A DNA stretch of 44,342 nt from an uncultured bacterium (GTDB lineage: Bacteria; Patescibacteriota; Minisyncoccia; Phycocordibacterales; PALSA-1337): contig CAIKAN010000090.1 in assembly GCA_903825415.1 (NCBI GenBank), forward strand, positions 1 through 44,342, written 5' to 3'. Position numbers and translations under genes: made by a program. Shown piece by piece: positions 16,610-36,558 of the stretch. How positions within the stretch are numbered: the first letter of the stretch is position 1; every line of letters starts with the position of its first letter. The notes below the pieces were generated by a model that did no database searches, was not told the DNA's origin, and saw nothing but the letters and a program-made list of their open reading frames with translations.

Positions 16610-17687
16610 AATCCGACTGGGGGGGGGGAGCTTTCACTGTTTGCGACGAATTCAATTCAGTCATACATACGATGATATCATTTCTCTCGAGAATCTGCTT
16701 GAAGCCTGGAAAGAATTCAGAAAAGATAAAAGATCTCGCAAAGATGTACAAGAATTTGAGCGCGATCTGATGGGTAATATCATATCGCTCCATAAAGAGC
16801 TTGTTTCTAAAACCTACAAGCATTCCGCATACGAAGCATTCAAGGTAAATGATCCAAAGCCTAGAGATATTCATAAAGCTACCGTTAGGGACCGACTATT
16901 GCATCGCGCACTATATAGGAAATTGTATCCTTTTTTCAATAGAGTCTTCATATCAGATTCCACTTCATGCAGATTGGAAAAAGGCACTCATAAAGCCGTG
17001 AATAGATTTCGCGTATTCGCGCGCAAGGCTTCTTTTAACCACACGAAAACGGTCTGGGTTCTAAAATGCGATATCAGGAAATTCTTCGCATCTATTGATC
17101 AGACAAAGCTTCTTGCCATTCTGGCTAAATATATTCTAGACAAGGATATTCTTGGTCTTATTTCAAAAATCATAGGTAGTTTCCATTCAATGGAGAAAGG
17201 AATAGGACTACCTCTAGGCAATCTAACTTCTCAATTATTCGTGAATATCTATATGAATGAATTCGATCAATTCATGAAGCATAGAATCAAAGCGAAATAC
17301 TATATCCGTTATTCTGATGACTTCGTGATCATTTCAAGAGATAGAGATTGGTTAGTCAGCACAATTTCAAGGATAAGAAACTTCCTGTGGTATGAATTGA
17401 GACTTTCACTTCATCCGAATAAAGTGTCGATTGGCACAGTCGCTTCAGGGATCGACTATCTCGGCTGGGTCAACTTCAATGATCATCGAGTTCTGAGGAC
17501 GGCCACGAAGAAGCGGATATTTAGGAGAATAAGAGAGATGCAAGGAAAGAAGGAAACAGTGCAATCATATTTGGGGATGATAGGGCATGGGAATTGCCAG
17601 AAATTGGAGATGAAAGTTCGGCTGTTAATTGTTTATAAAGAGATGAATACTCAAGCAACAATTACACAAGGTGTAGGTTATATTTAG
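16587..17687 (+). CDS. DGR reverse transcriptase (N-terminus uncertain)
   Basis: Motif A CDIRKFFASID, motif B GLPLGNLTSQLFVNIYMNEFD, catalytic YIRYSDDFVIIS, motif D LHPNKVSIGTVASGIDYLGW. Confidence 0.96.
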   Translation: MTLLKTGKIRLGGGSFHCLRRIQFSHTYDDIISLENLLEAWKEFRKDKRSRKDVQEFERDLMGNIISLHKELVSKTYKHSAYEAFKVNDPKPRDIHKATVRDRLLHRALYRKLYPFFNRVFISDSTSCRLEKGTHKAVNRFRVFARKASFNHTKTVWVLKCDIRKFFASIDQTKLLAILAKYILDKDILGLISKIIGSFHSMEKGIGLPLGNLTSQLFVNIYMNEFDQFMKHRIKAKYYIRYSDDFVIISRDRDWLVSTISRIRNFLWYELRLSLHPNKVSIGTVASGIDYLGWVNFNDHRVLRTATKKRIFRRIREMQGKKETVQSYLGMIGHGNCQKLEMKVRLLIVYKEMNTQATITQGVGYI

Positions 17688-26661: not shown

Positions 26662-26762
26662 AATATCTCGATCCGATTTTTGTGGTGCAAAAATTGGCCT
26701 CGGATCATTCTCTGCTTACGCAGAGAATGATATCTCGGCACGATTTTTGTGGTGCAAAAATC
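26662..26762 (+). repeat. two direct copies of a hairpin-forming ~33-bp repeat abutting the tmRNA 5' end
   Basis: cgatttttgtggtgcaaaaat at 26674-26694 and 26741-26761, separated by hairpin tcattctctgcttacgcagagaatga. Confidence 0.85.
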
Positions 26763-27122
26763 GGGGATGATCGGCATAGACAGCTGACAGCGTCCGTTCG
26801 TGCGGCGCGAGCACCATTAACTCGTAAATCTGATGGAAAAACTAAATGCTAAATCAACCGTTTCTCCGTATTTCGGAGCTAAGGAATTTGCATTCGCCCT
26901 TGTTTAAGGGCCGTCATACCGAGGGGATCCTGACCTCGGTGTTGGCGTAAATATCTGGATGTAGGCGGGAGAGCTTCTCACTCTCTCGTCCGAAGCCATG
27001 AGATCGCGATCGTGCGTTTTGTGTCCTTTCCTAACACGGTCGTTAAACCTTAAAGGATTCTACCGCCGTAGAATCGTTCGGTCTGCTTCGGTTGCACGCG
27101 GGTTCGATTCCCGCCATCTCCA
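26763..27122 (+). ncRNA. ssrA: transfer-messenger RNA
   Basis: 5' GGGGATG pairs with 3' CATCTCC; T arm GCGGGTTCGATTCCCGC; GGCATAGACAGC; putative tag ORF ending ...KEFAFALV* at 26907; adjacent to smpB; CCA not encoded. Confidence 0.9.
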
Positions 27123-27163
27123 CAACTATTAAAAAGCCGCTTCAGAAGCGGCTTTTTAATAGT
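27123..27163 (+). terminator. terminator of tmRNA
   Basis: aactattaaaaagccgcttcagaagcggctttttaatagtt. Confidence 0.85.
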
Positions 27164-27180
27164 TGCTGGTTGATAAGGAG

Positions 27181-27324
27181 CGAGCCGCCTGCGCGGCTCG
27201 CGTCGGGAATCGAAAAGTCTGAGCATGCGGCGCGGACGATCCAGCAGGATCGCCTACTGGGTCGAAGCGAGCACCGCGCGAAGACTCTACCGAGTCTGTA
27301 AGACTCGATTCCCGCCATCTCCAC
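27181..27324 (+). repeat. tRNA-tail-mimic element T1 (direct copy of tmRNA 3' end plus conserved hairpins)
   Basis: cgattcccgccatctccac copied exactly from 27105-27123; inverted cgggaatcga at 27204; gagtc-TGTAA-gactc hairpin; cgatcc-AGCA-ggatcg hairpin. Confidence 0.75.
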
Positions 27325-27456
27325 TAGCGATGATTTTTGAGCATCTTGGAGGGTAAATACTTTTTGAGGTAGCGACAGAATAGCGGTTTCAAACCCATCT
27401 CATAGTGTGACCCCTATAGCGAACTATAACCAGCAGAACTCAACAGGTTTGCTGGT

Positions 27457-27625
27457 CGATCGAGCACGATCGCCTACTGGGTCGGCTCGCGTCGGGAATC
27501 GAAAAGGTCGACGATCCAGCAGGATCGCCACTGGGTTAATATTTTCGAGCCTCTGGAGCGAAGCGGAGGAAGGGAGAAAATACGAGACCTCTACCGAGTC
27601 TGTAAGACTCGATTCCCGCCATCTC
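27457..27625 (+). repeat. tRNA-tail-mimic element T2 (second, degraded copy)
   Basis: gtcgggaatcgaaaa, cgatcc-AGCA-ggatcg, ctaccgagtc-TGTAA-gactc, cgattcccgccatctc shared with T1. Confidence 0.72.
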
Positions 27626-27631
27626 TCAACC

Positions 27632-27661
27632 TTGACATACAAGCTATTCTTTGTATATAAT
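27632..27661 (+). promoter_or_regulatory. promoter TTGACA-N18-TATAAT for ORF 27688
   Basis: Exact consensus hexamers. Confidence 0.75.
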
Positions 27662-36282: not shown

Positions 36283-36369
36283 GGAGACGTGGCTGAGTGG
36301 TCGAAAGCGGCACCGTGCTAAGGTGTTAGGGGCGAAAGTCCCTCGTGGGTTCGAATCCCACCGTCTCCG
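36283..36369 (+). tRNA. tRNA-Ser, anticodon GCU
   Basis: ggagacg/cgtctcc acceptor, loop gtGCTaa, long variable arm ggggcgaaagtccc, T arm gtggg-ttcgaat-cccac. Confidence 0.93.
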
Positions 36370-36398
36370 CATCGAATTTTGCGGAGCAAAATGAGTAA

Positions 36399-36528
36399 GG
36401 GGACGAGGAAGCGCCAAAGCGCTTCCGTGTGGGATTCGAAGCCCGATTGAGCATTTTTTATGAGCGAAGCAAAATAAAAAATCCAATCGGGATACTGGTC
36501 CTGTAAGGACCGAATCCCACCGTCTCCA
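36399..36528 (+). repeat. tRNA-tail-mimic element S1 downstream of tRNA-Ser
   Basis: cgaatcccaccgtctcc at 36511-36527 copies tRNA-Ser 36352-36368; 5' ggggacg can pair with cgtctcc; gtgggattcg pairs cgaatcccac; ggtcc-TGTAA-ggacc hairpin. Confidence 0.75.
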
Positions 36529-36558
36529 CAGCGAATGAATATGGCGAGCGAGCAAGGT

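Follow-up and report, generated by a model that had tools for sequence, protein, structure and literature searches.

What is a second copy of the tail of a tmRNA gene doing downstream of the gene itself? The window that raises this question, a stretch of 44,342 nucleotides analysed as a whole, comes from an uncultured patescibacterium whose own genome (1.05 Mb) is called G000 here. The last 19 nt of the tmRNA region, CGATTCCCGCCATCTCCAC (27105-27123), have an exact second copy at 27306-27324 and a partial one of 16 nt at 27610-27625. The sequence CGGCTCGCGTCGGGAATCGAAAAG also occurs at two sites (27194-27217 and 27483-27506), and AGCA hairpins lie at about 27237, 27457 and 27512. All of these tail copies, inverted blocks and hairpins had been reported in a first-pass annotation, and all are present. 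With up to two mismatches allowed, the 19-mer occurs only twice in the entire genome and a reversed control not at all, so chance is excluded.

The copies turn out to be the ends of elements about 150-200 bp in size that lie directly 3' of tRNA or tmRNA genes, on the same strand. Read from the host gene onwards, the order of parts is T1 - S - a' - hairpin A - t' - GAAAAG - P4 - NTAC - hairpin C - T2. T1 is the tail of the host, nt 57-74 in tRNA numbering (RANNCCNNN, the acceptor strand, the discriminator and C), and T2 is a copy of the same nucleotides. The spacer S is usually a terminator-like hairpin. The two arms are reverse complements of the tail, a' of nt 66-74 and t' of nt 57-65, and either T1 or T2 is able to pair with them. 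Hairpin A (hpA; 8-9 bp, loop often CTGC) lies between the arms, exactly at the junction of acceptor and T-arm. In the P4 stem there are a tandem GA/GA mismatch and an AT bulge, and its interior varies; hairpin C (hpC) has a GTA triloop. No substantial open reading frame was found in the elements, where the longest complete ATG frame has a median length of 13 aa and a maximum of 58 aa. Three elements lie in the window, two at the tmRNA gene and a third, missed in the first-pass annotation, behind tRNA-Ser(GCT):

26763-27123, + strand: tmRNA gene (ssrA), host of elements 1 and 2 (ARAGORN; Rfam RF00023, E=3.7e-46)
27106-27123, + strand: T1, the copied host tail GATTCCCGCCATCTCCAC, nt 57-74 in tRNA numbering
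27124-27324, + strand: element 1, inserted unit of 201 bp with the tail copy at its end (empty site in G003 and G023)
27124-27164, + strand: spacer S of element 1, a long terminator-like hairpin with perfect 21-nt arms
27180-27201, + strand: hpA, 9-bp hairpin GCGAGCCGC-CTGC-GCGGCTCGC, between the two reverse-complement blocks
27204-27211, + strand: t', reverse complement of host nt 57-64 (3' half of the T-arm), pairing with T1 or T2
27212-27286, + strand: core, comprising GAAAAG, P4 (tandem GA/GA; AT bulge) and the variable interior
27235-27263, + strand: nested REP-like insert 1, CGATCC-AGCA-GGATCG-CCTACTGGG, distinct from the element proper
27292-27306, + strand: hpC, 6-bp hairpin with GTA triloop
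27307-27324, + strand: T2 of element 1, an exact copy of the tmRNA tail
27430-27625 (left edge approximate), + strand: element 2, degenerate, with two nested REP-like inserts and hpA mostly replaced
27458-27483, + strand: nested REP-like insert 2, CGATCG-AGCA-CGATCG-CCTACTGGG
27510-27537, + strand: nested REP-like insert 3, CGATCC-AGCA-GGATCG-CCACTGGG
27611-27625, + strand: T2 of element 2, the first 15 nt of the tail
36283-36370, + strand: tRNA-Ser(GCT), host of element 3 (ARAGORN)
36371-36529, + strand: element 3, behind tRNA-Ser(GCT)

Elements 1 and 2 have in common a 37-nt block that is 100% identical (27285-27321 and 27589-27625). Folding, suggested in the first-pass annotation as a check, bears out element 1 (27172-27330; -74.2 kcal/mol, z = -3.9 against shuffles) but not the degenerate element 2 (27440-27630; z = -0.9), which is matched by the covariance model described below at 27462-27624 (E=1.2e-11). 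The T2 of element 3 (36512-36529) is 1/18 off the tail of its host, and its t' matches fully.

The surroundings of the tmRNA gene have features of their own. Just upstream (26663-26764), CGATTTTTGTGGTGCAAAAAT blocks, repeated and inverted, surround a perfect 12-bp hairpin. The sequence between elements 1 and 2 (27325-27430) is homologous to that directly behind the tmRNA gene in G003 and G023; its antisense strand seems to contain the last part of an ORF that runs into the tmRNA tail. The gene downstream of element 2, considered as a guide to orthologous sites, is not conserved in place.

Is the tmRNA gene special in carrying such elements? When 27166-27640 is compared by blastn with its own genome, relatives of the whole block appear at about a dozen further sites, nearly all directly behind different tRNA genes. 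The hosts include Gly-CCC, Leu-TAG, Leu-TAA, Arg-GCG, Tyr, Val-CAC, Val-TAC and Ser-GCT, along with Glu-CTC, where the end of the contig cuts the copy, and a tRNA labelled Pyl(CTA) by ARAGORN. In each copy the terminal tail and the internal inverted block fit the copy's own tRNA and not the tmRNA. Searched with a covariance model (R1, E <= 4.4e-4), the genome yields 15 copies; only some of the tRNAs of a genome have an element. Behind one tRNA-Met(CAT) of G000 (L021, contig C71) lie three tandem tail copies about 40 bp apart, with a short near-palindrome between them and no full element.

Adjacency to tRNA genes is not built into the covariance model. Among 99 distinct copies drawn from many genomes, 88 have a recognised tRNA or tmRNA gene upstream on the same strand, the distance from the tRNA to the start of the model match being 32 nt in the median and at most 56 nt in 82 of the 88; of the six that lie farther off, most are the second copy in an array. 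Tail and inverted arms match the adjacent gene. The first-pass annotation had seen here a structured repeat family that copies the 3' end of its host RNA, and had suggested a covariance search to find out whether copies adjoin tRNA or tmRNA genes and have tails matching the adjacent gene. They do, and the family stands. Several of the 11 copies with no recognised host lie at contig ends (L073, L134, L253), and two (L137, L250) have upstream a tRNA-like gene that ARAGORN missed, leaving about six apparent true orphans (L064, L066, L072, L135, L196, L264). The tail of one of these (L064, C51:23634-23771) resembles tRNA-Asn, the gene for which was not found in the assembly, and two others (L264, L072) have tRNA-like tails with no tRNA upstream. 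Yet another (L066, C73:113-235) is chimeric, with an inverted arm that fits a degenerate tRNA-like neighbour and a tail that fits a different tRNA; it is possibly an intermediate of retargeting.

The match between element and host is specific. In one cluster of tRNA genes (L222) the order is Cys-element-Leu-element-element-Lys-element-Leu, and every element fits its own tRNA. Over all, t' differs from its own host at a mean of 0.59 of 9 positions, as against 3.16 of 9 for the tails of other hosts, and the corresponding values for T2 are 3.0 and 7.8 of 18. There are 35 exact copies of the tail, and T2 lies within 3/18 mismatches of the host in more than half of 85 copies. The exceptions have a pattern. 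In 33 copies within 100 nt of the tRNA, T2 is more than 3 nt off the host, and the differences lie mainly in the acceptor half. In these same copies t' still shows 0.36 mismatches to T1 and a' shows 2.1 of 9, where 3.9 are expected, and a' is usually unfit to pair with the local T2. What is kept, then, is the complementarity of the arms to the real tRNA tail, plus the stem-forming part of T2.

Then there is the evidence on mobility. In two congeners (G003 and G023; L114 and L115) the tmRNA tail is joined directly to TAGC...TTTTTGAGCCTCTGG..., which in G000 is the flank that follows element 1. From this empty site, a clear one at this locus only, it follows that element 1 is a 201-bp insertion exactly at the 3' end of the tmRNA gene, with the tail duplicated. 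One correction to the first-pass annotation is that the elements are not confined to the tmRNA gene, nearly every tRNA being used. Another genome (G026) has an element at its tmRNA gene, where most congeners have none, and copy numbers per genome lie between 0 and 15 in the genus and reach 31 in the order. There exists, in short, a family of DNA hairpin elements that copy the tails of their hosts and show insertion-type polymorphism. How they move, and how their arms come to match their hosts, I can only infer.

I propose, with a probability of roughly 0.55, that these are short, non-autonomous DNA-hairpin elements that insert at the 3' ends of tRNA and tmRNA genes and have their arms rewritten by template switching. 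They would act as folded hairpins of single-stranded DNA. The insertion point lies directly behind the 3' end of the gene, all targets sharing the conserved T-loop GTTCRANNC, and insertion preserves the host tRNA while duplicating nt 57-74. An enzyme or a host process may recognise the folded strand by its conserved unpaired bases. After landing, a' and t' would be rewritten from the tail of the adjacent tRNA, through template switching within the imperfect palindrome T1-S-a'-hpA-t', and from then on only nt 57-65 of T2, the stretch that pairs, would be constrained by t'. Template switching perfects imperfect palindromes and creates compensated stems (PMC8794818, PMC7202029). A bolder version I put forward only tentatively: that this is mobile DNA with no fixed termini, its inverted arms and terminal repeat rebuilt from each target so that it would at all times be complementary to its host gene, and that it may spread without any dedicated enzyme, through template switching driven by hairpins during host replication at the 3' ends of tRNAs.

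The elements might instead be MITE-like, moved in trans by an HUH/Y1 transposase of the IS200/IS605 or RAYT type, with the arm as a long guide by which the tRNA is chosen. The hairpins are indeed of the DNA type and have conserved unpaired bases, and among genomes at least 90% complete those with a Y1 transposase contain more copies (mean 7.4) than those without (3.4; p = 0.017), a weak association uncorrected for phylogeny. But ten genomes with at least five copies have no detectable Y1 (a divergent one could be missed), among them G055, with 26 copies, and G062, which is 100% complete, has 13 copies, and contains one tyrosine recombinase and no detectable Y1 or reverse transcriptase. Many of these genomes have RAYT-like genes, but no element was seen next to the one in G000 (L171). 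On balance I consider such a transposase an unlikely, though respectable, explanation.

Other mobilisers fare worse. Reverse transcriptase shows no association with copy number (p = 0.94; genomes at least 90% complete, 100 relatives), nor does a second tyrosine recombinase (p = 0.73, among the 100 relatives), and both were rejected as movers. A SINE-like retroelement dependent on reverse transcriptase was rejected on the same grounds and also because genomes rich in copies (G066, G074, G055 and G091, with 21-31 each) have no RVT_1 match. The window does encode an RVT_1 domain (16857-17468), one of five in G000; it is not associated with elements. Host replication or repair, an undetected Y1, or another class of enzyme remain candidates for the mover.

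Could the conserved structure be that of an RNA? A functional trailer, transcribed together with the tRNA, might regulate 3' processing or termination, with the tail copy as a decoy to release the tRNA from the arm complementary to it. Such a trailer would account for the strict position on the same strand directly behind tRNAs, for a spacer that often looks like an intrinsic terminator, and for the strong covariation: in ten aligned copies from the window's own genome 93% of the cells are paired, both partners vary in 27 of the 34 pairs, and covariation scores 0.60, as against 0.06-0.13 in slid controls. The kind of base pair tells otherwise. If the structure served as RNA, G.U should be tolerated on just one of the strands. 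The stems of 74 unique aligned copies contain 37 G.T and 29 A.C oppositions in about 2,400 pairs, G.T being barely in excess even though the fit of the element model favours G.U, but tRNA acceptor stems at the same loci contain 51 G.T and 5 A.C, under a tRNA scoring that itself somewhat favours G.T. The near-symmetry implies that pairing is enforced at the level of DNA, by use of the folded strand, by template switching, or by both. These counts point to a structure kept as DNA and not as RNA, and the conserved unpaired bases suggest that the folded strand is recognised by some protein. Furthermore, elements are patchy among congeners and found at only some tRNAs of each genome, and Rfam, searched at gathering score, returns only tRNA and tmRNA and no family for the element. 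An RNA trailer is improbable.

It is no more attractive to view the elements as old residents, one lineage to each tRNA, inherited vertically and with cores homogenised by gene conversion. In G066, cores of 79 nt are 97.5-100% identical behind the tmRNA gene, tRNA-Pro and a third site, and the arms each fit their own host, which speaks for retargeting. In favour of old residents, hairpin A differs between such copies as well as the arms and tail, so exchange of cores among resident elements could mimic retargeting and has to be reckoned with. Against it, copies at the same type of tRNA in different genomes are barely more alike than unrelated copies (0.652 and 0.632), and presence is patchy within the genus. 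Core identities of at least 85% are fourfold more frequent among copies at different tRNAs of one genome (8.7%) than among copies from different genomes that share the tRNA type (2.1%). I give this view little credence.

It is very improbable that the repeats are attL/attR remnants of a tyrosine-integrase element that crossed over in the T-loop, as phage Ms6 does at tRNA-Ala (PMC1762012), and later lost its island: a duplicated tRNA 3' end beginning in the T-loop, the classical footprint, does flank the insert, but the same internal anatomy recurs at many different tRNAs, an inverted tail copy lies inside the element, near-identical cores have different tails and arms where an att sequence would be fixed by lineage, and there is no integrase. 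The attachment site and the satellite of the first-pass annotation are not borne out either: the search for an integrase, phage, plasmid or helper linked to the element found none.

The hairpin elements are found in 69 of 100 relatives, at 0-31 per genome, and are centred on one order of Patescibacteria. A scan of 84,980 species genomes for the core pattern gave 101 stretches, 80 of which were made into loci, and those confirmed by the model either have names of the Parcubacteria type (Taylor-, Nomura-, Lloyd- and Adlerbacteria, Paceibacterota) or come from metagenome-assembled genomes labelled uncultured or simply 'bacterium'. Matches to the core pattern in Proteobacteria, Firmicutes and others were not confirmed by the model and are put down to chance, which disposes of a wide distribution. 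A viral origin was likewise rejected: 17 IMG/VR contigs matched the core pattern and the covariance model confirmed none, and blastn against phage and plasmid records gave no match. At the level of the phylum, a search of reduced sensitivity found matches in 17 of 380 genomes, centred on the same order. The weaker matches examined in other families, other classes and the wider phylum lie mostly behind tRNAs and have fitting arms, and these (L307-L315) show a second type of core, GGAGCGAT...CGCGAG...GGGTCG, with a long hairpin C that has no GTA loop. No prior description of the element was found in open-access papers, and the family, a large one, is apparently undescribed so far.

The AGCA hairpins, taken in the first-pass annotation for part of the family, prove to be separate, nested REP-like inserts (hairpin plus CCTACTGGG), absent from most copies. 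Their form is CGATCC-AGCA-GGATCG-CC(T)ACTGGG, the reverse complement of which has GTAG next to the hairpin, the layout of GTAG-type REPs (PMC3733652). Those observed in G000 lie within tRNA elements: three are in the window and one is in the element at tRNA-Tyr (L006). Similar inserts lie within hairpin C of two other copies (L099 and L245). A RAYT-like gene is present in G000 (C94:6765-6986), with no AGCA-type palindrome in the adjoining stretch that was read.

Repeats that follow tRNAs in the Candidate Phyla Radiation could be due to the hairpin elements, as could breaks in assemblies at tRNA loci and the annotation of surplus, spurious tRNA tails. The elements may also provide marker loci for the history of strains in uncultured bacteria. 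How do they compare with systems already known? The palindromic elements of Rickettsia (RPE) are 105-146 bp, form long stem-loops, occur in reduced genomes, and are found even in the genes for tmRNA and RNase P RNA (PMC2229807). In shortness, palindromy, long stem-loops and reduced hosts the two are alike, but RPE also lie within genes and have a 12-bp duplication. RPE are not known to copy host-gene sequence into their arms. REP/BIME sequences moved by RAYT (Y1) proteins are likewise non-autonomous DNA hairpins, but they have a fixed GTAG foot and no tie to tRNA tails. The element has no such foot: its conserved feet, judging from the alignment, are GAAAAG and NTAC, CTAC/GTAG occurs in the nested inserts only, and its carriers need no detectable Y1 gene. 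Integrative elements targeted to tRNAs, such as phage Ms6, similarly duplicate the tRNA 3' end from the T-loop and keep the tRNA functional, but the element has neither integrase nor cargo, is present in hundreds of copies at nearly all tRNAs, and contains an inverted, host-specific copy of the tail.

Integron attC sites are imperfect inverted repeats conserved as a single-stranded DNA structure with extrahelical bases. The element resembles them in its imperfect inverted repeats and, on the reading proposed here, in its single-stranded structure with extrahelical bases, but paired core sites of the attC type (RYYYAAC/GTTRRRY) were found in 0 of 99 elements, there are no cassette ORFs, and identity with attC was rejected. 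What normally marks out a mobile element is its fixed ends, recognised by a matching enzyme. Here it is the core that the copies have in common, while the ends vary with the target, both arms and tail being copied from the adjacent tRNA, and hundreds of natural replicates stand ready for the question of how a piece of DNA re-templates itself on the site where it lands.
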